A DNA stretch of 64,000 nt, taken from Magnetococcales bacterium (lineage in GTDB: Bacteria > Pseudomonadota > Magnetococcia > Magnetococcales > Magnetaquicoccaceae). Location of the stretch: assembly GCA_015232825.1 (NCBI GenBank), contig JADFYY010000002.1, positions 1-64,000 of the forward strand, in the 5' to 3' direction. Both the position numbers and the translations under genes were made by a program. A model generated the notes under the pieces. That model was not told where the DNA came from, ran no database searches, and worked only from the letters and a program-made list of their open reading frames with translations. Positions 29,606 through 46,738 of this stretch are shown here, piece by piece (positions within the stretch are counted from its first letter, which is position 1; each line of letters begins with the position of its first letter).

Positions 29606-30349
29606 GTGAGGTGGGCTATGAATCTTGGCGTCAAGATAATCGGGATGCTATTGGTGGTGCTGGTGATGTCGGCAGAGGCCGCAGCGGTCTCTTTGTCCAT
29701 TGCCACGGCGGATTCTAATCCGGTCTATACCAATTCTGAAGGGAGTGGGTTGGTGGACCGAGTGGCGCAGGCCGTGTTTCAACGTTTGGGTTGGCAGTTG
29801 AAAATCAGCCATCTGCCATCCGAGCGCGCTTTGATCAATGCCAATGAAGGGATTGATGATGGCGAGTTGATGCGGGTTCCAGACAAATTTATTGTGGATA
29901 CCTATCCAAATCTGATCAAGATCCCTGAACCTTGGATGAACAAAGCCTTTATCGCCTTTACCAATCAGGAACATGTCATCATCAAGAGTTGGGGTGATCT
30001 CACTCCTTATACTGTGGGTTTCATCACTGGTTGGCGGATGTTCGAGGAGAACACCCGTGATGTTCCTAACCGGATCAGGGTCAAGGATGAGGAACTGTTG
30101 TTTGGTTTGATCAAGAATGATCGTGCGCAAATCATTCTGTATGACCGGGTGCAGGGGCAAGAGTATCTGCGTAAAGAGGGGATTCAAGGGGTTCGGGTCG
30201 TGGAACCCCCTCTGGCCGAGAAGGATCTTCACTTTTATCTCAACAAGAAACACGCTGGGCTTGTCGATGCGATCACGGATACCTTGAAAAATATGAAAAA
30301 GGATGGCAGCTATCAAAAATTGTTGGAGCGTGAGGAGATGCTCAAGTGA
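29606..30349 (+). CDS. Periplasmic solute-binding protein (SBP_bac_3-like)
   Basis: Signal peptide; VSLSIATADSNPVYTNSEGSGLVDRVAQAVFQRLGWQLKISHLPSERAL. Its stop overlaps the next kinase gene. Confidence 0.8.
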   Translation: MRWAMNLGVKIIGMLLVVLVMSAEAAAVSLSIATADSNPVYTNSEGSGLVDRVAQAVFQRLGWQLKISHLPSERALINANEGIDDGELMRVPDKFIVDTYPNLIKIPEPWMNKAFIAFTNQEHVIIKSWGDLTPYTVGFITGWRMFEENTRDVPNRIRVKDEELLFGLIKNDRAQIILYDRVQGQEYLRKEGIQGVRVVEPPLAEKDLHFYLNKKHAGLVDAITDTLKNMKKDGSYQKLLEREEMLK

Positions 30350-32589
30350 CAGTGCGCGACAACAATGCACTCGAAATTCCGGTCGGGGTGGCCCTGTTTC
30401 GGTCTGGAATTGCAAGGAAATTGACCTTGCTGGTGTTATTGTTCAGTTCGATTATCACCCTGATCGGAACCTTCTTTCAGCTTTATATGGATTATCGCTA
30501 TGATGTGAATCGGGTGTCGGTACGGTTCGAGGAGATTCGTAGTACGCATTTGGAGAGCATTATCCATCAGTTGTGGTTGACAGACACGGCTTCAGTCCTG
30601 TTGTTGATGGAGGGCATTCTACGTCTGCCAGATATTCACTATCTGGAAATCGTGCGTCCCAATGCCCCGACTCTGACCGTGGGAGAGCTTGGCGTCAACG
30701 TGATCGAGCGCAATTTTCCACTGCGCTATTCTTATCGGGACAAAAGCATTGATCTTGGCCTGTTGCGGATTCAAGCCAACCTTTCCGCCATTTATCAACG
30801 CTTGATGGATAAGTTATTGATTATTCTGGTGACTCAGGCAGTTAAAACTTTTTTAGTTTCAACTTTTATTCTCCTGTTGTTTTATTATTTGGTTGGCCGA
30901 CATCTGATTGCCATTGCGGAGCATTCCAGAGTAGTAAGTCTAGAAGAGTCCTTTACCCCCATACGCCTGAATCGTCGTCTACCTTCTGGGGGGCCTGACG
31001 AACTAGACCGCCTTGTGGAGTCGTTGAACCAAACAAGTGCGGGCTATTTCGCGCTGCTTACGGAATTGTCTACCACCAATCACGCCTTGCAGCAGGAAAT
31101 CAAGGAACGCGAAACCGCTGAACGAGCATTGCAGAATTACCGTGATCACCTAGAGGAGATGATTCGTATCCGTTCTGGCGAGTTGATCGTTGCCAAAGAG
31201 CGGGCGGATGCAGCCAGCCAGAGCAAGTCGCTTTTTTTGGCCAATATGTCCCATGAACTGCGCACTCCCATCAACGCAATTTTGGGATTCGCGCAATTTA
31301 TTGCCAGAGATCCTGACGTCACACCAAAGCAAAAAGAATATCTGGATATTATTTTTAATTCTGGGGCTCATCTTCTCGATATCATTAATGAAATTCTTGA
31401 TCTGGCAAAAATTGAATCCGGGAGAATGGTGGTTGAATATACCGATATTGACTTGAGCGGCATGCTCCATGACCTGATCAACATGATGCGTGTTCGGGCC
31501 GAGGCCAAGGGATTGGATCTGCGAATTGATCAATCGTCGTCATTTCCCCGTTATGTGCGTACAGATTGCGCCAAATTACGGCAAATTATTATTAATATTA
31601 TAGGTAATGCAATTAAGTTTACCTCTCATGGGGAGGTCGTGGTGAAACTTTGTCTCCAGGGGGTCCATAAACGGCTTCTGTTGTTTGAAATTACGGATTC
31701 AGGCGTCGGGATTGCGTCGGAGAATCTGGAACGGATTCAATTGCCATTTGTGCAACTGGATCAAAGCGGAGGCACAGGGCTTGGGCTTTCCATCTCCAGG
31801 CAGTTGATTGCGCTATTGGGCGGAGAAATGCGGATTGCTAGTGAGTTGGGCAAAGGTTCGACCTTCTCCTTTTCCATTGCCTTTGAATCGGTCGTTAACC
31901 CGGAAAGTGAGTCGCCACGCCTCCAGTCCAACGGGGAGGTTATACGGATTGATAACGCTTGGGAATATCGGATCCTCATTGTTGAAGATCAGTGGGAAAA
32001 CCGGTTGTTGCTCCAAACCCTGTTGGAAAATCATCATTTTCAACTTCGTGTTGCAGTGGATGGTCGTGAGGGAGTGCGGATTTTCCAAGAGTGGCACCCC
32101 CATTTGGTACTGATGGATCGGCGTATGCCGGTGCTGGATGGATTGTCAGCGGTCAAGGAGATTCGTGCCTTGCCAGAAGGCCGGGAGGTTCCGATCATTG
32201 CGGTTACGGCGCATACATTCAGCAATGAGCGTATGGAGATGCTGGAGGCCGGGTGTGACGATTTTTTGGCAAAGCCGTTTTCAGAAGGCGAATTGTTCGA
32301 TATGATGAAAAAATACCTCCCATTATCCATCATTGGGCAGGAACGGATTTCCTGTGTCGTGGCCACTGAAGAGGCCTTGGATGCCGCTTTGCTGGGTAAA
32401 CTGCCGATTTCTTTGCTTCGGGAGCTTAATGACAGCCTGATTCGTCTGGATTTGATGCAGATTACCGCGTTAATTCAACGGGTGAAGGCCATGGATAAGG
32501 GGTTGGGAAAAACATTGGAAGGATTTGGCGAGCGGTTCGAGTTTATGCCGATCCGTAAAGCTATTCAGGTGATTGTTGGAGAAAAATGA
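30346..32589 (+). CDS. Hybrid sensor histidine kinase (TM sensor-HK-REC)
   Basis: LANMSHELRTPINAILGFAQFIARD, IIINIIGNAIKFTSHGEVV, GGTGLGLSISRQLIALLGGEMRI, REC HLVLMDRRMPVLDGLSAV. Confidence 0.93.
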   Translation: MTVRDNNALEIPVGVALFRSGIARKLTLLVLLFSSIITLIGTFFQLYMDYRYDVNRVSVRFEEIRSTHLESIIHQLWLTDTASVLLLMEGILRLPDIHYLEIVRPNAPTLTVGELGVNVIERNFPLRYSYRDKSIDLGLLRIQANLSAIYQRLMDKLLIILVTQAVKTFLVSTFILLLFYYLVGRHLIAIAEHSRVVSLEESFTPIRLNRRLPSGGPDELDRLVESLNQTSAGYFALLTELSTTNHALQQEIKERETAERALQNYRDHLEEMIRIRSGELIVAKERADAASQSKSLFLANMSHELRTPINAILGFAQFIARDPDVTPKQKEYLDIIFNSGAHLLDIINEILDLAKIESGRMVVEYTDIDLSGMLHDLINMMRVRAEAKGLDLRIDQSSSFPRYVRTDCAKLRQIIINIIGNAIKFTSHGEVVVKLCLQGVHKRLLLFEITDSGVGIASENLERIQLPFVQLDQSGGTGLGLSISRQLIALLGGEMRIASELGKGSTFSFSIAFESVVNPESESPRLQSNGEVIRIDNAWEYRILIVEDQWENRLLLQTLLENHHFQLRVAVDGREGVRIFQEWHPHLVLMDRRMPVLDGLSAVKEIRALPEGREVPIIAVTAHTFSNERMEMLEAGCDDFLAKPFSEGELFDMMKKYLPLSIIGQERISCVVATEEALDAALLGKLPISLLRELNDSLIRLDLMQITALIQRVKAMDKGLGKTLEGFGERFEFMPIRKAIQVIVGEK

Positions 32590-34571
32590 TGAGACCTAAA
32601 GGGATTTTGATCGTGGAGGACAATCTGCCCTCCCTGAAGTTGTTGTCGGATATTCTGACAGAGGCTGGTTATCCCATCCGACCTGCCAACAACGGAATGG
32701 TCGCGATGGAAGCACTTTTGTCTGAACCGCCGGAATTGATTCTGCTGGACATCTCAATGCCTGTCATGGATGGGTTTGAGTTTTGTCGCCGGGTCAAGGC
32801 CCTGGAATTTTTGCATGATATCCCCATTCTGTTCATCAGTGGTTCCACAAACCGGGAGGAGCGGGTCAAGGGGTTTGAAGTGGGGGCGGTCGATTTTATT
32901 TCCAAACCATTTCAGAGTGATGAGCTGCTGGCGCGGGTGAATACCCATTTGGAGTTGAGTCGGTTGCGGCGGCGGCTGGAGGTCCAGGTGTTGCAACGGA
33001 CAAACGACCTTGCCAGCATCAACAAGAGATTGCTACAAGAGCTTGAAGAACGCAAAAAGGCGGAAACAAAGCTTAGGAATCTATTCAATCGCTATGATGC
33101 GATTATTTCCAACAGCAAGGATGGATTTTGGATCGTTGATCTGGATGGCCGGATCTTGGAGGTCAATAAGGCTTATCTGAACATGACGGGGTACTCCAGG
33201 GAAGAGGTTCTCACCAAGAAGATTGCGGATCTGGAAGGGGTGGAAAATCCTGAAGCTGTCAAGAAGCATATTCGCAAGTTGCTTGAGAAAGGGAGTGAAA
33301 CTTTTGAAACCCGCCATCGGAAAAAACAGGGCGGTTTGGTTGATCTGGAAGTAACCGCGAATTATTTGGAATTCGAAAACGAAAAGCTTTTATTTGCTTT
33401 TTTGCGTGATATCAGTGCCAGGATCGAGATGGAGAAAAGGTTGGCCTATTCCCAAAGGATGGAGGCTGTTGGAACGTTGGCCGGGGGGATCGCTCATGAT
33501 TTTAATAATATTCTTGCGATCATCATGGGGAATGCAGAACTGGTTCAATATGGTGTTGGTGACCTTAAGGCGAACATGACGAATGTGTTGAAAGCGGTTG
33601 AGAGGGGACGGGAACTTGTGTTGCAGCTTTTGACCTTCAGTCGGGAAAAGAAAAAAGAGGAGATCCTGTTTGATCCCGCACCGATGGTCAAGGAGGCCCT
33701 TAAACTGATGCGTTCGCTTCTTCCTTCATCCGTTATTGTCAAGGAGAGCATTATTGAAGGCGGTGGGCAGGTCTTGTGGGATCCGACTCAATGGCATCAG
33801 GTCGTGATGAATTTATGTACGAATGCCCGTCATGCCATGGGGGAAAAGGGGGGCGTGCTGACCGTGCAGATGAGTCGGATTTATTTGAATGAGGAACATG
33901 CGGCGCAACGTTTGCTGGAGGAAGGGCTGTATTTTGAATTGATGGTCAAAGATACGGGCGTTGGCATCTCTTTGGAAGTGCAAGAACACATCTTTGAGCC
34001 ATTTTTTACGACCAAAGAGATTGGTGGTGGAACGGGACTCGGACTCTCGGTGGTCTACGGGGCGGTGAAAAATTGTGGAGGAGCCGTTTTTGTGGAAAGT
34101 GCGATCACCCAGGGGAGTGCGTTTTTTGTTTATCTTCCGATTGCCACGCAACAGGTTTCTCGTGTCGAGCAAACCGATCCGAATGCTATTCGCATGAGTT
34201 CTGGGAATGTTCTTTTTGTGGATGATGAATTGGAGTTGGTGAATGTGGTGGCGTCTTTTTTGGGTGTCATTGGCTATACCCCGACCTGTCTGACCAATCC
34301 CAAAGAGGCGTTGGAGTTGTTTCGGAACCATCCAGATCGGTTCGATGTCGTCATTACAGATCAAGTGATGCCAGAGTTGTCCGGTGATGAACTGGCCAGA
34401 GAGATTCATCAGATTCGTCCTGAACGGCCGATTATCTTGTGTACGGGTTACAGCGAACGGATCAATGATGAAACAGTGGCTGAGAGTGTTGGATTCTGTA
34501 CCTATCTGCTCAAGCCTTTTTCTATGAATGCGTTGGCTAATTCTTTGTATGGTGTCACCTTGACGAGTTGA
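32586..34571 (+). CDS. REC-PAS-histidine kinase-REC protein
   Basis: REC ELILLDISMPVMDGFEF; PAS DGFWIVDLDGRILEVNKAYLNMTGYS; kinase [45 protein letters not shown]-terminal REC DVVITDQVMPELSG. Confidence 0.93.
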   Translation: MMRPKGILIVEDNLPSLKLLSDILTEAGYPIRPANNGMVAMEALLSEPPELILLDISMPVMDGFEFCRRVKALEFLHDIPILFISGSTNREERVKGFEVGAVDFISKPFQSDELLARVNTHLELSRLRRRLEVQVLQRTNDLASINKRLLQELEERKKAETKLRNLFNRYDAIISNSKDGFWIVDLDGRILEVNKAYLNMTGYSREEVLTKKIADLEGVENPEAVKKHIRKLLEKGSETFETRHRKKQGGLVDLEVTANYLEFENEKLLFAFLRDISARIEMEKRLAYSQRMEAVGTLAGGIAHDFNNILAIIMGNAELVQYGVGDLKANMTNVLKAVERGRELVLQLLTFSREKKKEEILFDPAPMVKEALKLMRSLLPSSVIVKESIIEGGGQVLWDPTQWHQVVMNLCTNARHAMGEKGGVLTVQMSRIYLNEEHAAQRLLEEGLYFELMVKDTGVGISLEVQEHIFEPFFTTKEIGGGTGLGLSVVYGAVKNCGGAVFVESAITQGSAFFVYLPIATQQVSRVEQTDPNAIRMSSGNVLFVDDELELVNVVASFLGVIGYTPTCLTNPKEALELFRNHPDRFDVVITDQVMPELSGDELAREIHQIRPERPIILCTGYSERINDETVAESVGFCTYLLKPFSMNALANSLYGVTLTS

Positions 34572-34586
34572 TAAGGATTTTTAGTC

Positions 34587-35696
34587 ATGTCTGGATCGGT
34601 GCAAAGCTCTTGGTGCAGGTGGTGGGCAGGCATGATCTGTGTTGTCTTGTTTTTTATTTTGTGTTTTTCCGCTTTTGCAAATAATCAGCTTTATCTGCAA
34701 TATTCTTTTGAAAAAGATCCCCAAGTGATTGATCTTGGCACCCAACCCTTGTGGTTGCCCGGCGGGGTTGTCACTGCAGTCATGCAACGGGATAACTTAT
34801 TGCGGCAGGAGTTGGCCAAAGTCGGGATGGCGGTCCGCTTTCATCCGTTCATGAAAGGAGCGGATGTCAATGCTTTTCTGCATGGTGGTCAATTGGAGGG
34901 TGGGGTGGGGGGGGACATGCCAGCCATCACCGCATGCATCCAGGATCAAATGCAGATTGTCTCTCTGATCGATCTCGGTTTTACCTCCATCGTCACCCGT
35001 GAAGCCATGCTGATGACCTCTTTGCAGGGAGGTCGCATCGGGTATGCGAGAGGCTCCAATGCCCATTATGCCTTGCTGCAGACCTTGGCTAGTTCTGGGA
35101 TGGATGAATCGACCGTCACACTGGTGGAGATGGATGTGGATGCCATGCCAGAACAGTTGCGCAAGAAGCAAATCGACGCCTTTGCCGCCTGGGAACCGAC
35201 CCCGACTTGGGCCGTTTTTCAAGACAATGCCCAGATTGTTTACCGTTTTCTCTCTTCTGGTTATGTTTATTTCGCGCCAAGTGTGGTCCAAGATCATCCC
35301 GAAGCGGTGCGGATACTCTTGGCGGCCCAAATACGCGCTCTGACATGGCTGGATCAATCCGAGGCCAATTTGGAGCAGGGCGTGGATTGGGGGATCGAAG
35401 AGATGCACAAACTGTTGAATACCCAGGAGAAACGGGATCGTGATGAGCTTGTCCGTCTGACCATGCGTGGCTTGCGTAACTTGAGCCTGACCCCTTTGTT
35501 GCCAGAAGATGATCGGATGCCTCAAGGCCGACTGGCTAAGGCCGTTGCCTTTCTGCGCAAGATTGACAAGATTCCTCGTGACGCCTCCTGGGAGTCGGTT
35601 AGCTCCTGTTTTCACCCGGAACTGGTGGAGACCGTGTTACTGGCCCCGACACAATATCAGTTGGATCTTTTTGATTATCGCCAGGAGGTGCCTTGA
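34587..35696 (+). CDS. ABC transporter substrate-binding protein-like (NMT1/SsuA-type)
   Basis: Signal peptide; GGVVTAVMQRDNLLRQELAKVGMAVRFHPFMKGADVNAFLHGGQLEGGVGGDMPAI...AFAAWEPTPTWAV. Confidence 0.82.
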   Translation: MSGSVQSSWCRWWAGMICVVLFFILCFSAFANNQLYLQYSFEKDPQVIDLGTQPLWLPGGVVTAVMQRDNLLRQELAKVGMAVRFHPFMKGADVNAFLHGGQLEGGVGGDMPAITACIQDQMQIVSLIDLGFTSIVTREAMLMTSLQGGRIGYARGSNAHYALLQTLASSGMDESTVTLVEMDVDAMPEQLRKKQIDAFAAWEPTPTWAVFQDNAQIVYRFLSSGYVYFAPSVVQDHPEAVRILLAAQIRALTWLDQSEANLEQGVDWGIEEMHKLLNTQEKRDRDELVRLTMRGLRNLSLTPLLPEDDRMPQGRLAKAVAFLRKIDKIPRDASWESVSSCFHPELVETVLLAPTQYQLDLFDYRQEVP

Positions 35697-38620
35697 TGCT
35701 TGGAACCTCTTGCCCTCTCCATAAGGATCGCGTGTGGTCCAAAGGTTTGCAGGGTCGGATGATCCTGTGGTTTGGTGGACTGTTTTTGGCTGTTTTGATG
35801 CTGGTTCTGCTGGTCATCAATTGGGGTGTGCCTAGGAGTGGTTATTCTGGGCGGATCAGCGAAATTCGCGTTGAGATTTTTCAACATCTCAATCATTTGG
35901 CCGATCTAAAAAAACAGTTGGTGGTGGAATGGCTCTCTGAACGTCACCGTAGTCTCCGTTTTCTGGCCCGAAATCCCGATTTGATTGAAGAGAGTGTGCG
36001 GTTTATGGCGACGGGTCAGGAGGTTGAGCGAGTCGCCATTACCCAGAGGTTGGTTGCTCTGGATGAAGCCTATCCCGAAATCTTGCGTGCCGAACTCCTG
36101 GATCCAGGAACAGGCCGCGTCGTGATTTCTAGTCAGAAGGGAGGGGTGGAGTCTGTGGACTATTCAGATCCCTTTTTGCGTCATGCTTGGCTCTCCCGTA
36201 ACGGCTTTGTTGATCGCGTGGTGCTGGATTATGGGAGTGGCCATCCGGTCTTTCCCATTGGCCACGCCATCCGTAATCGGGATGGTAACACGATTGCCAT
36301 CCTAGTGGCATTGGTGACTCCCAGGATTTTTTTGCAGACCTTACTGCAAACCGGCCAAGTGGTGGGGCAGAGCAGACAGGTCTATCTGGTGGATGATCAA
36401 GGCAATCTGGTCACTTCTCTTGGAACGATTAAATCTTCTTGGTCAATCGAACCGTCGCCCGTGTTGTTGGGCGTTCCGGGACAAGAAGGCATCTTTGAAA
36501 CCACGGATACTCATGGAGTACCCGTGATCGCTGCGATTCGTCACATTCGGGTGAATACCGATTGGGGTTGGAGTTTGGTGATCAAGCAGGATCAGGCGGA
36601 GATGTTTTCTCCAGTGGTGCGCGAGATTGTTTTGGTTGTCGGTGCGGGGGGGCTTGGGTTTGTGCTGGTGGTCTTGTTGACCATTTTGATGGCCCGACGG
36701 CTTGGCGAACCTTTGTTGCGTTTGAGCCATACGGCGTCCGCTTTGGCAAGAGGGGAGATGTCCGCGCGTACTGGTCTGGATCAGGAAGGAGAGATCGGGG
36801 AGTTGGGGCGTGTTTTTGATTTCATGGCAGGACGCATCCAGGAGACATTGGCCAATAGTGAAGAACAGTTTCGTCAGTTGGAGGTGCTGATCAACAGTAG
36901 CCCAGATGGTATTTTTGCTTTTGACCAGAAGATGCGCTTGACCGTTTGGAATCCCACCATGACGCATCTGTTTGGCCTCTCCCGTGAGGAGTGTTTGGGG
37001 CAGAAGTTGGCGGCATTGATACCGTTTGGAGCCAATCTGGCAAGAAAGAGGCAGTGCGATTTTGTGTTGGCGGGCGAGGAGACCGAAGTTCTGGAGCAGG
37101 TGCATATCCATTCGTTAAACGGAGAGCGGATGGTGTTGGAGGAACGCTACTCCCCCTTGAGGAGTCTGGATGGGGAGATCTGTGGCGGATTGGTTGCCAT
37201 TCGCGACATTGCCGTTCGTAAACAGGCGGAGGAGGAGTCGCGACTGGCTAGGGAACTGGCCGATGCGGCCAATCGGGCCAAATCCATTTTTTTGGCCAAC
37301 ATGTCCCACGAATTGCGTACCCCCATCAATGCTATCTTGGGGTTTTCCCAGATCATGTCCAGGGATCCTGAACTTAACGAAAAACAGAAGGAAAATCTGG
37401 ATATTATTCTCAACTCCAGTGCCCATTTGCAGGATATCATCAACGCCATTTTGGATATGGCGAAAATTGAATCCGGGAAAATGGAGGTTGATCTGGTGGA
37501 TATCGACTTGGGTGGCCTGATCCATGACCTGATTGACATGTTGCGTCTTCGGGCCGACTCCAAAGGGTTGGAATTGCGTCTGGATCAATCGTCGTCGTTT
37601 CCAAGCCATGTCCGCACCGACCCTGCCAAGTTGCGGCAAATTATTATTAATATTATTGGAAATGCGATTAAGTTTACAAATAGTGGATATATTGTTTTAA
37701 AATTATCTCTCTGTGATGCCTTGCTGTTTGAGATCACGGATTCAGGCATCGGAATTTCAGCAGAGAGCCTGGAGAAGATCCAACAACCGTTTGTGCAACT
37801 CGCCCAGAGTGGAGGGACAGGGCTTGGGCTTTCTATTTCCAGGCAGTTGATTGGTCTTTTAGGAGGGGAGATGCGTATTGCCAGTGAGTTGGGCAAAGGG
37901 ACGACCTTCTCTTTTACCATCCCTTTTGTGCCAGTCACCGGGACTCCTCCTCATGCCTCAGACAACGGAGAGATTGTGGGTATCGACAATGGCTGTGAGT
38001 ACCGGATTCTGATTGTCGAAGACCAGCGGGAGAACCGGTTGCTGCTGCAAAACCTGTTGTCCCAGCACAATTTTCAGCTTAGGAGTGCTGAAGATGGTCG
38101 GGAAGGGGTTCGGGTTTTTCAGGAGTGGCACCCCCATCTGGTGCTGATGGATCGACGTATGCCTGTATTGGATGGACTTTCGGCGACCAGGGAGATTCGG
38201 GCGTTGCCAGATGGTAAGGAGGTCAAGATCATTGCAGTTACGGCACATACCTTTAATAATGAGCGTATGGAGATGCTGGAGGCCGGTTGTGACGATGTTC
38301 TGGCAAAGCCGTTTTCAGAAAGTGGATTGTACGATATCATGAAAAAATATCTTTCATTCTCCATAACCCGGCAGGAGAGGATGCCAGCTGTGGTTTTGGA
38401 TGCGGTATTGGATCCTGTGGCCTTGGCTAAACTCCCGGTCTCTTTGCTGCGGGAATTGGATGATAGTCTGGTTCGTCTGGATATGGTGGAGATTACGCAA
38501 TGGATCCAGCAGGTGGCAGGTCTGGATGAGGGGTTGGGAAAAATAATGAAAATCTATGGCGAACGGTTTGAGTTCATGCCGATTCGCAAGGCCATCCAAG
38601 CCATTATCGGTGGAAAATAA
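35693..38620 (+). CDS. Cache-like sensor-HAMP-PAS-HK-REC hybrid histidine kinase
   Basis: 975 aa: extracytoplasmic sensor between two TMs, HAMP, PAS (SSPDGIFAFDQKMRLTVWNPTMTHLFG), LANMSHELRTPINAILGFSQIMSRD, REC HLVLMDRRMPVLDGLSAT. Confidence 0.93.
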   Translation: MMLGTSCPLHKDRVWSKGLQGRMILWFGGLFLAVLMLVLLVINWGVPRSGYSGRISEIRVEIFQHLNHLADLKKQLVVEWLSERHRSLRFLARNPDLIEESVRFMATGQEVERVAITQRLVALDEAYPEILRAELLDPGTGRVVISSQKGGVESVDYSDPFLRHAWLSRNGFVDRVVLDYGSGHPVFPIGHAIRNRDGNTIAILVALVTPRIFLQTLLQTGQVVGQSRQVYLVDDQGNLVTSLGTIKSSWSIEPSPVLLGVPGQEGIFETTDTHGVPVIAAIRHIRVNTDWGWSLVIKQDQAEMFSPVVREIVLVVGAGGLGFVLVVLLTILMARRLGEPLLRLSHTASALARGEMSARTGLDQEGEIGELGRVFDFMAGRIQETLANSEEQFRQLEVLINSSPDGIFAFDQKMRLTVWNPTMTHLFGLSREECLGQKLAALIPFGANLARKRQCDFVLAGEETEVLEQVHIHSLNGERMVLEERYSPLRSLDGEICGGLVAIRDIAVRKQAEEESRLARELADAANRAKSIFLANMSHELRTPINAILGFSQIMSRDPELNEKQKENLDIILNSSAHLQDIINAILDMAKIESGKMEVDLVDIDLGGLIHDLIDMLRLRADSKGLELRLDQSSSFPSHVRTDPAKLRQIIINIIGNAIKFTNSGYIVLKLSLCDALLFEITDSGIGISAESLEKIQQPFVQLAQSGGTGLGLSISRQLIGLLGGEMRIASELGKGTTFSFTIPFVPVTGTPPHASDNGEIVGIDNGCEYRILIVEDQRENRLLLQNLLSQHNFQLRSAEDGREGVRVFQEWHPHLVLMDRRMPVLDGLSATREIRALPDGKEVKIIAVTAHTFNNERMEMLEAGCDDVLAKPFSESGLYDIMKKYLSFSITRQERMPAVVLDAVLDPVALAKLPVSLLRELDDSLVRLDMVEITQWIQQVAGLDEGLGKIMKIYGERFEFMPIRKAIQAIIGGK

Positions 38621-38621
38621 A

Positions 38622-41600
38622 ATGATCATTCATACCCCATTGCAAAGTGTCAATGAACGTCTCCGCGAGAGTGAGGAGCGGTTTCGCTCCGTAGCCCAGT
38701 CAGCTACGGATGCGATTATTTCTATTGGTTTGGATGGCAATGTATCCTTTTGGAATCAATGGGCAGAGAAAATCTTTCAATATTCCAGTGCTGAGATCCT
38801 TGGGAAAAATATTTCTGTCATTGTCCCAGAACGGTATGAGTCCGCACATCTTCATGCCATTGAAAATCTGAAACAAACGGGTCAAATGAAGCATGGAGCC
38901 GGGGAAGTCCTGGAACTCTGGGGAAAAAGACGCGATGGCCAGGAACTCCCTCTGGAAATGACCGTATCCTCCTGGACAATTGGGGGGGAATTGAATTTCA
39001 CCGCCATTATTCGTGACGTGACAGAAAAAAGGCGAACCGAGGAGATCCTGCGCCAGTCACAAAAAATGGAGGCGATAGGAACGCTGGCTGGTGGTATTGC
39101 GCATGATTTTAACAATATTCTTGCCATTATTATGGGTAATGCGGAGTTAGCCGAATGTTGCTGTGAAGCGTGTGGGTTTCGGGTCAAGACAATCCTGAAA
39201 GCGGTGCAGAGAGGACGGGATTTGGTGCGTCAACTTTTGACTTTTAGTCGTCAGAGACAGCTTGAGAAGCAACCGTTCAATCCTGTTGTAATTATTAAAG
39301 ACGTGCTCCAATTCATGCGGTCAACACTGCCATCCTCCATTGATATTCGTGAGGAGTGTAAAAATCAGGAAGCCGTGCAGATATTGGGTGATACGACCCA
39401 ATTGTATCATGTGATGATTAATCTATGTACCAATGCCAGCCATGCGATGGGTGATGATGGTGGTGTGCTGACGGTCAAAATGGATTGGGTTTCGGTGGGT
39501 GTTGATGAGGCAAAGGTTTTTGGATTGGAGGTTGGTGATTATTTTGAGATTTGTGTGCAAGATAGCGGTCCAGGAATACCGGATGAAATTATGGGTCGTA
39601 TCTTTGAACCATTTTTCACAACTAAAGATATTGGGAAAGGTGCTGGTTTGGGGTTGTCACTGGTTTATGGGGCGGTTAAAAATTGTGGAGGAAACATTCT
39701 TGTCGAGAGTGAATTGGGTCGGGGGGCTACATTCAAGGTCTATTTGCCAATTTTGAAGAGGACTGGCTCTAGCGTGGAGTCGTGTCATCAGGATGATCCC
39801 TTGGTCGTGCGGAAGGGTTCTGGCCGGGTTTTGTTTGTGGATGATGAGCCCTGTCTGATGGATGTGGCGGTCAAAATGTTGGAGGCTATGGGGTTTTCCC
39901 CGGTTGGATTTACCGATCCAGTGGCAGCCTTGGAGTGCTTTCAAGCCTCACCATACGCTTTTGATGTGGTCGTGACCGATCAGATGATGCCGGGTTTGAC
40001 CGGTGATGAGTTGGCCATCCGCTTGAAAAAAATCCGTTCAAATATTCCTCTCTTGCTGTGTACCGGGTTTAGCGAAAAAACCACCGAAGAGAGAATTGCT
40101 GCGGTTGGGTTTCGGGATTGTTTGTATAAACCGGTCTCCATGAATGATTTTTATGCGGCTTTGTCGGGAATCATGCAGGAGGTTGGCCCCACTCCTCATG
40201 CGGTCCGCCAGATTGAGGAGCCGTTGGAGGGGGCCACAGAGGCGTTGTTTGCCGAGGATGGGCGGATGCGCGTGTTGGTTGTGGACGATGAAATCGATAT
40301 TGTCAATATTTTGATTACCTGGGCCAAGAGCAAACCTTTTGCCTTGGTTGGTGTGGTCTCTGGTGAGTCCGCATTGGAAATCCTTGCAAACCAGACTGTG
40401 GATATTCTGGTTACCGATATTTTGATGCCTAAACTGGATGGCTTGACCCTGCTTACCAAGGCCATTGAGATCCATCCTGAGATCAAGACCATCGTGATCA
40501 GTGGTCATGGAGATATGCAAGACGCCGTGAATGCTGTGAATCGGGGGGCTGTGGGTTATTTGGTAAAACCAATCAATCTGGAGGATTTGGATCGACTGAT
40601 CGAGCAATGCATCGACCGCATCGTGACCCAAAAGGAGTTGCAGGTCATGCGGGATCAGGCCCTTTTGTCGAACAATGCCAAGGGTGAATATCTTGCCCGG
40701 ATGAGCCATGAAATTCGTACCCCAATGAATGCGATCATTGGTTTGGCGCGTCTGGCCCTTGACAAGGATTTGCAACCAAACATTAGAGACTATTTGCAAA
40801 AAATCTCCAACGCCTCGCACTCCTTGATGCGGCTTCTTAATGATATTTTAGACATTTCCAAAATGGATGCTGGCAAGCTGCACATGGAACAGTCGGATTT
40901 CATCCTCCAGCAAGTGTTTGATCATTTATCTGACCTGTTGCGTGTCAAAGCCCTGGAAAAACGCCTTGAATTGATCTTTTCTGTGTCCAAAGAGCTGAAT
41001 TATCAACTGAACGGGGATATTTTGCGCCTTGAACAGATATTAATGAATCTGACCAGTAATGCCATCAAGTTTACCGATTCAGGAGAGATTGAGGTTGGGG
41101 TCAAAACCATTCAGCAGACCGATGATCAGGTCACTTTGGAGTTCCATGTGCGCGATACCGGAATCGGGTTGACTGCTGAGCAGATTGAGCGACTTTTTTC
41201 CCCATTCACCCAGGCTGAGGCTTCAACCACCCGTCGATTTGGTGGGAGTGGTTTGGGGCTCTCCATCAGCAAGAAATTGGTGGAGTTGATGGGAGGGGAA
41301 ATTTGGGTGGAGTCTGAAGCGGATCGCGGGAGCGTATTCTATTTCACCGTCATTTTCCGCTTTGGGAAGGAGTCGCTTGAATTTCATCCAAAGTTATCAT
41401 GGATCGATCCCATGCCCTTGATTGAACAGATTCGTGGTTCACGTGTCTTGTTGGCGGAAGATAACGCCATCAACCAACAGGTGGCCGTTGAAATCCTGCA
41501 AGGGTTGGGGGTGGTGGTAGAAATTGCTGAAAACGGCTTGCAGGCCGTTGAAATGGTGAAATCAATGGCGTTTGACCTCGTGTTGATGGATTTGCAAATG

Positions 41601-42497
41601 CCGGTCATGAATGGCTTTTTGGCCATTCGTCTGATTCGGAGCGATTCTCGTTTTGCGCCATTGCCCATTGTGGCCATGACCGCTCATGCCATGGCAGGAG
41701 ACCGGGAAAAAAGTCTGGAAGCCGGTTTTAATGATCATGTCACCAAGCCCATTGAGATGCATCACTTGTATGAGGCTTTGGCCAGATGGATCCCATTCAA
41801 AGAGCGATTGCATGGGCCGGTGATCCTGCCGCCGGTGAGTCGTCCGGTATCTGTTTTGCGCTTGCCGCCTGTGCTGCAGGCCATTGAAGTCGAGGAGTGT
41901 TTAAGACGTTTCAACAATAATCACGAAAGTGTTTATCGAATCCTGCTGGCGTCACGCGAGGAGTTTTCTTGCGCGGCCCAGGAGATGCGCACGTTGCTCG
42001 GAGGGCGGCGGAAGCGTGATCATGAGACTGCCTTGCGTCTGGCTCATACCATCAAGGGGTTGGCGGGAACCTTTTCAGCGGATCGACTTCAGGTCGCAGC
42101 CCTTGCCCTTGAGATGGCCTTGCGGGTTGGAGACAAAACTCAATGGCCCCCCCTGATAGATGAGTTTGATCTCGCTTTGCAACAGATTTTGCAGGATATC
42201 CAAACTCTGGAACTCTTGTCCTTGTCACAATCCAAAGAGGTTGATTCCACACAACCCCCGTGTCTTGTGCCTATGGAGCAGGTCCATGCGAAGTTGTTGG
42301 AATTGGCGGGATATCTCAAGAATCACGACATCCGGGCGCGTACCACTTTGGACGCGCTGATTCCGTTATTGCGCAACGAGGCCACCATTCAAGAGGATGT
42401 GGCCTTGTTGCAGAAACATCTTGGACGATTCGATTTCAAGGAAGCCTTGTCTCTTCTGAATGAGTTAATTTTTTGTTTGGGGAAGGTTTTCCGTTAG
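38622..42497 (+). CDS. Multidomain hybrid kinase (PAS-HK-REC-REC-HK-REC-HPt)
   Basis: Two kinase cores ([45 protein letters not shown]), RECs [30 protein letters not shown] and [15 protein letters not shown], HPt [18 protein letters not shown]. Confidence 0.93.
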
Positions 42498-43175
42498 CCA
42501 AGATATCAGTGTTTTTTTGTTGCGGGAAGCCAGTAGAATTTGACCCTGACCAGAAAAACGTAAGACTAACGACTCCCCACTGGTCGCAGCACTGACCATT
42601 CCTCCTAGGAATCCTCGACCACTGTTTGGTGTGGTTATTTCGTAAGTTAAGTTTGTATCCCAGGCGACAACATGTTCATTGTCAATGGTTAACGGTTGCC
42701 CTGGTTTGACGTCTAATAAAAAAACAGATCCAAACGCCGAGACGGCTAGCTTTCCTTTCCCGGTAGATTGTTGGATCAGAAATCCTCCTGTACCTCCGAA
42801 CATCGCATGCCCTAAATTTTGCATCACAGATTTGATTGCGACGCCATCGGTACACGCGAGGAAAGCCCCATCTGCCAGATAAAACTGTTTATCGCCTACA
42901 TTAAAAACATGCATTCCTCCCGGAAAAGGGGCTGCCAACAGTAGGTCTCCAGGTCCATTTTGTGCTGTTATCTTTTGTTGAAAAATAGATTCTTCGTTAG
43001 CCATCCGCCGGACCAAGGCACCAAAAATTCCTTGATTGCCCAGCGAACCATCCAATATGAGTGTTTCCTCCATCATGACCATGGCATTGGATTCAGCCAA
43101 AATGGATTCCCCTTGTTGCAACGAAACATGTAAAAACGGGTCAACCTCACCGGTAATCGTGAATTCTGCCATCAA
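42465..43175 (-). CDS. AIM24 family protein
   Basis: EFTITGEVDPFLHVSLQQGESILAESNAMVMMEETLILDGSL...GPGDLLLAAPFPGGMHVF...GGTGGFLIQQSTGKGKLAVSAFGSVF. Confidence 0.85.
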   Translation of the reverse strand: MMAEFTITGEVDPFLHVSLQQGESILAESNAMVMMEETLILDGSLGNQGIFGALVRRMANEESIFQQKITAQNGPGDLLLAAPFPGGMHVFNVGDKQFYLADGAFLACTDGVAIKSVMQNLGHAMFGGTGGFLIQQSTGKGKLAVSAFGSVFLLDVKPGQPLTIDNEHVVAWDTNLTYEITTPNSGRGFLGGMVSAATSGESLVLRFSGQGQILLASRNKKTLISWLTENLPQTKN

Positions 43176-43185
43176 AACCTCCTGC

Positions 43186-44082
43186 CTAAAATGGCATTTT
43201 TTTGAAGTCTATTTGTCGGTTTTTTCCAGTTTTTTTGGTATTTTTGCTCTTGAGGGAGGCCGCTAACCGTAGACCAAGATCAGCACGGCGCGTGGTGCTT
43301 GTCTGGAATCCGCGATTGGCGCACCGTACCCCTGAGGCATCATCCTGCCAACTGCCGCCACGTATGGCAAAGAATTGAGTGCGGTCTTCTTGACTCCCTG
43401 GAGAAGTGGCCTGCTTGGCATAGGAGGAGAGATAGGGATCTTGTACCCACTCCCAGACATTGCCACTCATGTCTAGAAGACCCAGTTTGTTAGGTGCGCG
43501 GGTGCCAACGGCATGGGTGGCCCCACTGCTGTTGCCTCGATACCAAGCGATTCGGCTTGGTTCGCTGCCACCCGGATAGACCGTGCGTTGTCCGCCATTG
43601 CGACAAGCGTATTCCCATTCCGCTTCTGTGGGGAGACGAAATTGGACATTCGTGCGTGTTTGATTGTTGAGCGCGGTAATGAACTCGTTCACATCCTCTC
43701 GCGAGACGTTTTCAACGGGAAAGGTCTCGCCTTTGCGGTCGGAGGCCGGATTGTTGTGCATGACGCGCCGCCATTGTCCTTGTGTGATTTCACTCTCCCC
43801 TAACCAGAAATCCGCCACGCATTTTTGATGAACCGGGCCTTCGTCGGTATCCCGCCCTTCGGCCCTTGGCGGTGAACCCATTTGGAAACAGCCGCCCGCA
43901 ACCCATAACAAGGGGACGTCGCTGACCGGGTCGCGCCAAGGCGTTCCGCTTTTGATGGTGAGTGGGGGGGTGGAAGGGGCTCCTTGCAACGTCAATGGTT
44001 CCCACTCGTTGATCAAAAAGGCCGAAGCCGATTGGGAAAATCCTACGATTCCCAATAGTAATCCCAATGACAAAAAGTTCAC
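43186..44082 (-). CDS. Secreted formylglycine-generating enzyme/SUMF1-like protein
   Basis: Signal peptide; GGCFQMGSPPRAEGRDTDEGPVHQKCVADFWLGESEITQGQWRRVM...RLPTEAEWEYACRNGG...GLLDMSGNVWEWVQDPY...IRGGSWQDDASGVRCANRG. Confidence 0.92.
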   Translation of the reverse strand: MNFLSLGLLLGIVGFSQSASAFLINEWEPLTLQGAPSTPPLTIKSGTPWRDPVSDVPLLWVAGGCFQMGSPPRAEGRDTDEGPVHQKCVADFWLGESEITQGQWRRVMHNNPASDRKGETFPVENVSREDVNEFITALNNQTRTNVQFRLPTEAEWEYACRNGGQRTVYPGGSEPSRIAWYRGNSSGATHAVGTRAPNKLGLLDMSGNVWEWVQDPYLSSYAKQATSPGSQEDRTQFFAIRGGSWQDDASGVRCANRGFQTSTTRRADLGLRLAASLKSKNTKKTGKNRQIDFKKMPF

Positions 44083-45665
44083 TGTTCTCCTCCAGTGCGA
44101 GTCAGGCGCATCGGTGTGGGGAGCGCGAGAATTGGATCGGATGGGGGGGTGTGTTGCGAGAGTTTGACTTTTAAATAATCAAAGGCTTCGGTCAGATTGA
44201 CCCAACCATCTTTTTTGCCAGCAGGAAAGCCGTCTGCATCCCCCAGCAGACCTTTGAGCAAAAACCAAGTGAATGCCCCCTGTTGACCAGGACCATGGAG
44301 TGCCGCACCCTTTTTTTCACTGGCAACGGCCATGGGTTTGCCTTGCAGAAAAAGAGAGCGTTTGGCCACCAGATTGGGCTGGTCAGGTTGGACAGCACAG
44401 GTCGGGGTGTTATTGAAACAGACATCCAGCAAGACCACGATCTCCTTGTTGGGAAGTCGGGAGAGTGCGCCATTGAGTCGAGCAATGGATATGGCGTGGT
44501 CTGCGTCCAAGGCGTTTAATTGGGCATCAACCGGCAACAGCAAAGCGTCTGTGGCCGTGGGATAGCCTAGGCCAGAGAAATAAAACAACAAGCTGGCATT
44601 GGGATTGAGTTCTCCCTGTTTGACCAGCCAATCCAGATCTTGTTGTAAGGTCTGCCGGTCGGCGGCTGCATTGACACGCAGTCGGATATGATCGACATCC
44701 GCCATGAAAACGCCCCGGCGGGTCAGTAGATGATGAATATTGGTGGCATCCCGGTCTGCGAAGTGACGGGCCTTGATCCGTTTGTAATGGCTGATGCCTG
44801 CTACGACGGCAAAGGCGTCGCCACGTTTTTGCCACGAGGCCAAAACAGGCATGGCCGTGATGGTGTTGTCCAGCATCGCGTCTTGTGTGTCGATGTCGCC
44901 GGATTTCGGCCATACCTCATGGGGAAGAGGCAGGGGATAAGGAGTTTCGGCCTCTGGGTCGGTATAGGCGAGTAATAATTGGTCCTTGGTTTGGACAAAA
45001 CGGGTTTCGGTTGGATACTCTTTGACTAATAGGTTGATCGATTGCCGCAAGGAATCCATCCGATCCCCTTTGCGGAACTGACGCCAAAGGGTTTCGGTTA
45101 CGAATTTAGAGGCCATCTCCTGCCATCGGTCTACTTGATCTCCTTTGAGACCCGTACCCGCTTCATCTTGTTCCTGGGAGCGCATACGCATGATCCAATC
45201 ATAGGCCTCCAGGTAGTCCCCTTTGCGAAAGAGGGTGAAAAGCTTGGTGTGGGCCATGGACAAATTGCCAGGATGTTGGTTGAAACCCTCCGAAGCAAGT
45301 CTGTACGCCTTTTTGTCATCGCCAAGTTCGAATTTTAACCAAGCCAGATTGGCCAGAGTTTTTTCATGGTTCGGGAATGACTCGTGCAGATTTTCCCAAG
45401 TTTCCATGGCTTGCTTTTTTTTCCCGGTTTGATACAGTGCCAGTCCCAGATTGAATCCAATGACCACATCGGCAGTGCAGATGGTCTGTGCATTTTGGAA
45501 TGCTTTCAAGGCCTCGTCTGGCTTGGCATCCAATAGCGCGATGGCCTTGGTTTCGATTTCACGGGCCACAACGCAGGGATTGGACTGGGAAGCCTCAGCG
45601 TTGCCGCTGCCAAATAACAGCAAAAGTGACAGTAATGCTGACAAGAACGCGAAAGAGTGGGACAA
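44079..45665 (-). CDS. Secreted TPR + caspase-like (peptidase C14 fold) protein
   Basis: Signal peptide, TPR region, then AVVAGISHYKRIKARHFADRDATNIHHLLTRRGVF...SLLFYFSGLGYPTATDALLLPVDA...IVVLLDVCFNNTP. Confidence 0.82.
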   Translation of the reverse strand: MSHSFAFLSALLSLLLLFGSGNAEASQSNPCVVAREIETKAIALLDAKPDEALKAFQNAQTICTADVVIGFNLGLALYQTGKKKQAMETWENLHESFPNHEKTLANLAWLKFELGDDKKAYRLASEGFNQHPGNLSMAHTKLFTLFRKGDYLEAYDWIMRMRSQEQDEAGTGLKGDQVDRWQEMASKFVTETLWRQFRKGDRMDSLRQSINLLVKEYPTETRFVQTKDQLLLAYTDPEAETPYPLPLPHEVWPKSGDIDTQDAMLDNTITAMPVLASWQKRGDAFAVVAGISHYKRIKARHFADRDATNIHHLLTRRGVFMADVDHIRLRVNAAADRQTLQQDLDWLVKQGELNPNASLLFYFSGLGYPTATDALLLPVDAQLNALDADHAISIARLNGALSRLPNKEIVVLLDVCFNNTPTCAVQPDQPNLVAKRSLFLQGKPMAVASEKKGAALHGPGQQGAFTWFLLKGLLGDADGFPAGKKDGWVNLTEAFDYLKVKLSQHTPPSDPILALPTPMRLTRTGGEQ

Positions 45666-45670
45666 TGTCC

Positions 45671-46738
45671 TTAATCCTTGATCCGTGGGTCCAGACGTCC
45701 AGAGGCGTATTCACTGGCCATTTTGTCCAGATCGATGACCTGGATTCGAGAGGCATTGCCAGCGGTTTCAAATTGTTCAAACCGCTCCTTGCAAATGCGA
45801 TAGGCGGCATCCTCAGCCGGTCGCAGATATTTTCTGGGGTCAAATTCGCCGGGTTTATCGGCAAATACCTTGCGGATGGCCCCGGTCATGGCCAGACGTA
45901 GATCCGTGTCGATGTTGATTTTGCGCACCCCGTGTTTAATGCCGGTTTGAATCTCCTCGACCGGTACTCCATAGGTCTCTGGAATGGCTCCCCCATGGGC
46001 GTTGATGATGGCCAGCAGATCTTGCGGCACAGAAGAGGAGCCATGCATCACCAGATGGGTATCTGGCAGACGGGCGTGGATTTCTTTGATGCGGGCAATT
46101 GCTAGGATGTCGCCGGTTGGTTTGCGGCTGAACTTGTAGGCCCCATGAGAGGTGCCAATGGCAATGGCCAAGGCATCTACCCGTGTGGCCGCCACAAAGC
46201 GAGCGGCCTCTTCAGGGTCGGTTAACAGATGATCACGTTCTATATCTCCTTGTGCGCCGTGACCATCTTCTTCGCCAGCCTTGCCGGTTTCCAGTGAGCC
46301 GAGTACCCCCAATTCGCCTTCCACGGAGACGCCGATGGCATGGGCCATTTCCACCACTTTGGCGGTGGTGGCGACGTTGTAATCATAAGAGGCGGCGGTT
46401 TTGCCATCTTCGTGCAGTGAGCCATCCATCATGACGCTGGTGAATCCGCTACGGATGGCACTAAAACAGACAGCCGGGGATTGCCCGTGGTCTTGATGCA
46501 TCACGACCGGTAGATGGGGATAGACCTCTAGGGCTGCCAGAATTTGATGACGCAAAAACGCCTCGCCCGCATATTTTCTTGCACCAGCCGAGGCTTGCAG
46601 AATGACGGGGCTATCGGTTTCGTCGGCGGCGCGTAGAATGGCCCGTACCTGTTCCATGTTGTTGACATTGAAGGCGGGAATTCCATAATTAAATTCGGCG
46701 GCGTGGTCTAAGAGTTGCCGCATGGATGCCAATGGCAT
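45671..46738 (-). CDS. Class II fructose-bisphosphate aldolase (Calvin-cycle-subtype-like)
   Basis: [62 protein letters not shown]...[11 protein letters not shown]...[13 protein letters not shown]. Confidence 0.93.

Follow-up and report, generated by a model that had tools for sequence, protein, structure and literature searches.

Caspase relatives that lack the catalytic histidine are a known kind of protein. An early survey of bacterial metacaspases, which included Magnetococcus MC-1, found an intact dyad in 84% of the proteins and a dyad that is not intact in 16% (Asplund-Samuelsson 2012, PMC3501461, as far as its accessible text goes). In 2019, 858 of 9,994 orthocaspases were counted as lacking an intact dyad, mostly with Tyr-Ser, Tyr-Ala or Phe-Ser in its place, and the commonest dyads of these pseudo-orthocaspases were YS, YA, FS, QC, HA and YN (accessible part of PMC6426788). 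In the same part of this survey, alphaproteobacterial pseudo-orthocaspases are confined to Rhizobiales, Rhodobacterales and Rhodospirillales, with a link to phototrophy (PMC6426788).

The protein described here is encoded in a stretch of 64,000 nucleotides (the window) whose contig belongs to a Magnetococcales genome bin (G000:C193; 3.0 Mb, 77% complete). Its gene and the features discussed below are collected in Table 1. The chain appears to begin with a signal peptide and continues with TPR helices, which include a Pfam TPR_6 match at residues 71-100 (E=4e-6). The order Magnetococcales is best known for its magnetotactic members.

Table 1. The caspase-like gene, its neighbors and its residues of interest; nucleotide positions are those of the window.
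Feature	Position	Strand	Remarks
TPR-caspase protein gene	44079..45665	minus	528 aa, TTG start
Signal peptide	about residues 1-25 of TPR-caspase protein		judged by eye from sequence
TPR helices	residues 30-235 of TPR-caspase protein		AlphaFold2 model
Caspase-fold domain	about residues 283-523 of TPR-caspase protein		C-terminal part; profile and AlphaFold2 model
Leu366, codon CTA	44568..44570	minus	position of catalytic His in caspases
Cys416, codon TGT	44418..44420	minus	position of catalytic Cys; invariant in 43/43 orthologs
Cys423, codon TGT	44397..44399	minus	second invariant Cys; proposed disulfide partner of Cys416
Cys31, codon TGC/TGT	45573..45575	minus	start of first TPR helix; proposed partner of Cys63
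Cys63	45477..45479	minus	end of second TPR helix; proposed partner of Cys31
FGE-sulfatase-fold protein gene	43186..44082	minus	298 aa, signal peptide; 4-base overlap with caspase-like gene
Class II fructose-bisphosphate aldolase gene	45671..46738	minus	5 bases upstream of caspase-like gene

The best family model for the caspase domain (residues 286-504) is NCBIfam caspase_w_EACC1 (NF047832, E=4.4e-15), although the score of 55.7 bits lies below the curated cut-off of 140. At E<=0.01, Pfam Peptidase_C14 (PF00656) is found in 34 of 41 orthologs; it does not match the window protein even at E<=1. The AlphaFold2 model of the window protein has a pLDDT of 90.8, and its best fold matches in the PDB are chains of the MALT1 paracaspase (3v4o; E=5.8e-10, TM 0.69 normalised by target). 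A sequence search of the PDB returned matches to TPR proteins only. Because the NF047832 match, the Pfam matches among orthologs and the predicted fold agree, we conclude that the domain really is a true caspase relative, with a caspase-type alpha/beta fold as modeled. The chain ends about 80 residues past the loop after Cys416, which bears on the presence of a separate p10 domain.

The original prediction held that SGHG is replaced by SGLG in this protein while the catalytic cysteine is kept. Both points are borne out by the translation, in which the motif reads LLFYFSGLGYP and the cysteine region LLDVCFNN retains Cys416 after strand 4 (DxC), a residue that is invariant in orthologs. The window protein thus has leucine where active proteases of this type carry the histidine of (F/Y)SGHG, and its p20-type domain with a substituted His-Cys dyad corresponds to a pseudo-orthocaspase in the usage of PMC6426788. 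The leucine is no sequencing error, since it recurs in six named Magnetococcales metagenome-assembled genomes and in 9/9 orthologs from the same genus. Among the 26 members with leucine, all six codons (CTG, TTG, CTA, CTC, CTT and TTA) are in use, and therefore the residue has persisted through changes of codon. It had further been argued that CTA is too far from a histidine codon for a single-base step. CTA is indeed two changes from CAT or CAC, but the argument is weak because the synonymous codons CTC and CTT are one step from histidine.

One ortholog of the caspase-like protein is present in 43 of 48 Magnetococcales genomes (two partial, 41 full-length). Position 366 is Leu in 26 of these proteins, His in 11, Trp in three, and Arg, Phe and Asn in one each. 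The claim that the usual histidine is lacking is therefore correct for the window protein, but too narrow as a description of the order. No ortholog was found in G018, an order-level genome that is 96% complete; completeness is 57-78% in the remaining four genomes that lack one. Among about 350 other genomes of the phylum there is no full-length member, and the three best-matching outside proteins are caspases with the canonical His-Cys dyad that align over the caspase part only.

Outside relatives establish that histidine is ancestral at position 366, because GHG is kept in three other C14 proteins of the source genome and in the three nearest matches outside the class. Histidine is likewise kept in nearly all of the 31 other Magnetococcales C14 domains and the 27 further ones that we compared. 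Homologs that retain the histidine had been named in advance as evidence against the original prediction; such homologs exist in the 11 orthologs, and they reveal the direction of the loss rather than refute it. A second caspase family also recurs in many Magnetococcales, combining WD40 repeats with a canonical His-Cys caspase domain in about 800-900 aa (L008:1-2247, G000:C243), and a beta-barrel-like ORF follows next after the G000:C243 copy.

In a tree of the 41 full-length orthologs, the 29 members with Leu or Trp group together (support 92/67, not starred), apart from the other 12, which have His, Arg, Phe or Asn. This grouping is supported by residue 299, which is Gly in 12/12 of the latter and mostly Ala among the Leu/Trp members, a distribution that needs a single change on the tree. 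At least three changes between histidine and another residue are needed. The Phe member L025 is sister to the His member L029 (100/100 support) and is a recent independent loss. The caspase domain is under purifying selection, with an omega (dN/dS) of 0.04-0.18 in the close pairs tested. Moreover, its divergence relative to the TPR part is alike in Leu groups (1.15-1.5) and His-bearing groups (1.33-1.5), and we therefore reject a general relaxation of the domain after the histidine was lost. In the Trp366 members (L036, L037 and L042), the caspase domain diverges 2.4 times faster than the TPR part, and relaxed constraint is possible there.

All 41 full-length orthologs, with or without the histidine, have the same four cysteines (C31, C63, C416 and C423), and the C416/C423 pair is found in both partial orthologs as well. 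The second residue of this pair lies at +7, or at +8 in L033 and L055. Most members, including the window protein, are without further cysteines in the mature chain. A cysteine at +7 or +8 after the catalytic cysteine occurs in none of the 31 other Magnetococcales C14 domains (the cysteine motif was detected in 30), and 27 other proteobacterial C14 domains, like the three nearest outside relatives, have no equivalent of C423.

In the AlphaFold2 model, helices 30-44 and 49-62 belong to one helical hairpin, with C31 at the start of the first and C63 at the end of the second, a predicted geometry that fits a disulfide. The model places C416 at the end of strand 408-416 and C423 in the loop after the strand. 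We infer that C31-C63 and C416-C423 form disulfides. Members of genus g2 (L026, L028, L031, L036, L037, L042 and L050) have an extra cysteine pair in the TPR part, such as C198/C207 in L026, and this joint gain of two cysteines is as expected for a disulfide. DsbA- and DsbB-like genes adjoin each other in the source genome (G000:C237); DsbB is recognised in only 18 of 48 genomes, and other oxidants may serve. The four invariant cysteines could also serve another purpose, such as metal binding. A literature search on disulfides in caspase folds returned no report.

The original prediction also proposed an FGE-like partner, and this is confirmed at the level of gene order. An exported FGE-like gene lies directly downstream of the caspase-like gene in 43/43 loci, with a gap of -4 to +119 bases, and most often the two overlap or are separated by 70 bases or less. 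The partner carries the FGE-sulfatase domain (PF03781, E=1.3e-44), and its weak matches to GldK and PvdO are far below the curated cut-offs. Four cysteines (C65, C88, C160 and C254) are invariant in the partner. However, RGGSWQDDASGVRCANR and its orthologs have one cysteine only after RGGS, where true formylglycine-generating enzymes have a pair of catalytic cysteines. The partner is thus probably an enzyme-dead FGE-fold family of its own. An export signal is present in the partner at all loci that were read. Together, the substituted caspase dyad, the missing FGE cysteine pair and the linkage suggest that the two genes probably encode exported, enzyme-dead proteins that are joined in every genome having them.

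The aldolase gene is located just upstream in 31 of 43 loci. It probably stands outside the function of the pair, because it is absent from this position in family f14 wherever the flank was read. Just downstream of the pair in the window is a gene for an AIM24 / TIGR00266 family protein (42465-43175). Farther along are two histidine kinase/response regulator hybrids (30346-32589 and 35693-38620) whose C-terminal halves are closely similar, a tandem duplication as judged by eye, and each is followed by a PAS/kinase hybrid (32586-34571 and 38556-42497).

We favor a model, with a probability of roughly 0.55, in which the protein is an exported, non-proteolytic caspase-fold scaffold whose former catalytic cysteine is held in a C416-C423 disulfide, rendering the histidine dispensable. 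The N-terminal TPR superhelix and the caspase-fold domain would serve for binding, either in the periplasm or on the cell surface. They would do so jointly with the exported FGE-like product of the next gene downstream, perhaps in direct contact with it. The ancestral protein of the Magnetococcales family would have acquired a second cysteine 7-8 residues after the catalytic one, and the oxidising periplasm would have promoted a disulfide between them. The catalytic cysteine would then have become structural and the histidine would no longer have been needed, so that histidine might have been replaced on three or more occasions, by Leu (followed by Trp in one subclade) and by Arg, Phe and Asn. 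Cys416 was probably kept while the histidine was lost because Cys416 is now part of a structural disulfide.

The 11 orthologs that keep the histidine have the same cysteine pair and could be active, in which case the disulfide would be reversible or absent there. This could be extended to the whole family if C416-C423 reversibly locked a real protease in the His-bearing orthologs, with the clade of the window protein retaining only the redox-sensing or binding half. Although both cysteines are common to His-bearing and His-less members, we consider this unlikely, since activity and bond reversibility would both have to be assumed. About equally improbable is a pseudo-protease that differs from our preferred scaffold in that Cys416 is free and kept for substrate trapping, metal or haem binding, or stability of the fold. 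The cysteine is indeed kept in other pseudo-orthocaspases, such as those with a QC dyad (accessible part of PMC6426788), but a free Cys416 leaves unexplained the co-invariance of C423, which is found only in this caspase-like family.

The original prediction offered an alternative catalytic arrangement as another way to account for the missing histidine. The protein would still cut, with a residue such as His457 (in the loop that precedes GAFTW) or His301 (beside Arg300) activating Cys416. Judged by alignment with caspases, His457 would presumably sit near the S1/S2 pocket, and it is commoner in members without His366 (21/32) than in members with it (1/11). However, these counts amount to only 2-3 phylogenetically independent comparisons, with no significant link between His457 and loss of His366. 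This best candidate is also missing in most Leu366 members of family f14, where position 457 is Leu, Leu, Asn, His, Asn, Asn, Asn and Gln, and position 301 is Tyr in family f6. The only near-invariant histidines among non-His members are His139, in the TPR part, and His326, which precedes strand 327-331 and by caspase topology would lie at the end of the sheet away from the active site; proximity to Cys416 is expected for neither. Thus, none of His301, His326 and His457 combines conservation in non-His members with a plausible location, and the alignment of orthologs reveals no conserved substitute histidine.

Alternative catalysis is accordingly less probable than either reading above, even though near-invariant substrate-side residues (Arg300 in nearly all) could point to retained ligand binding or activity. 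Similarly doubtful is a cysteine enzyme that is His-free or redox-gated, in which Cys416 would be chemically active and switched by Cys423 within an exported caspase fold lacking the canonical histidine. The description as an established pseudo-enzyme is well supported, because the loss is fixed in the 29-ortholog clade, omega is low and a conserved replacement histidine is lacking. A relaxed, decaying gene or a sequencing error, for which the missing residue itself is the sole support, has virtually no chance of being correct and is refuted by leucine in nine same-genus genomes with different codons, by the low omega and by intact frames across the order.

Pseudo-orthocaspases are usually known as scattered paralogs. 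The present family is single-copy and order-wide; it includes members with and without the histidine, and in none of them does the catalytic cysteine vary. If the C416-C423 disulfide is true, the family would illustrate a concrete route from protease to scaffold, in which the cysteine becomes structural first and the histidine drifts afterwards. The Magnetococcales cell envelope would then also contain a caspase-fold scaffold alongside an enzyme-dead FGE-fold partner.

MALT1, the best fold match, is an active, cytosolic His-Cys protease, and its sequence identity to the window protein is 15%. The best family model describes EACC1-associated caspases (NF047832), but the window locus is without an EACC1 domain or conflict-system neighbors. 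The partner shares the FGE-sulfatase domain with exported FGE-fold proteins (GldK/PorK, PvdO, SUMF1-like) and is without the catalytic cysteine pair of true FGE. In the literature on Magnetococcales caspases, only the 2012 survey is relevant, and its accessible text makes no mention of the family, the FGE-like neighbor or the cysteine pair (PMC3501461). Likewise, the accessible literature yielded no description of an order-wide exported family with Leu/Trp/Arg/Phe/Asn replacements, a CX6-7C pair and a fixed FGE-fold neighbor.

The family resembles pseudo-orthocaspases, including SyOC of Synechocystis, in having a prokaryotic p20-type domain with a substituted His-Cys dyad (accessible parts of PMC6426788 and PMC7889975). 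The accessible parts of the same two papers make no mention of an exported CX6-7C pair. In the Magnetococcales family the substituted dyad is LC, WC, RC, FC or NC, unlike the commonest dyads of pseudo-orthocaspases, and Magnetococcales lie outside the orders named for alphaproteobacterial examples in the accessible text of PMC6426788. According to that text, TPR repeats also occur in some pseudo-orthocaspases (those with FS dyads), where they are located after the p20 domain, whereas in the Magnetococcales family they precede the caspase domain.
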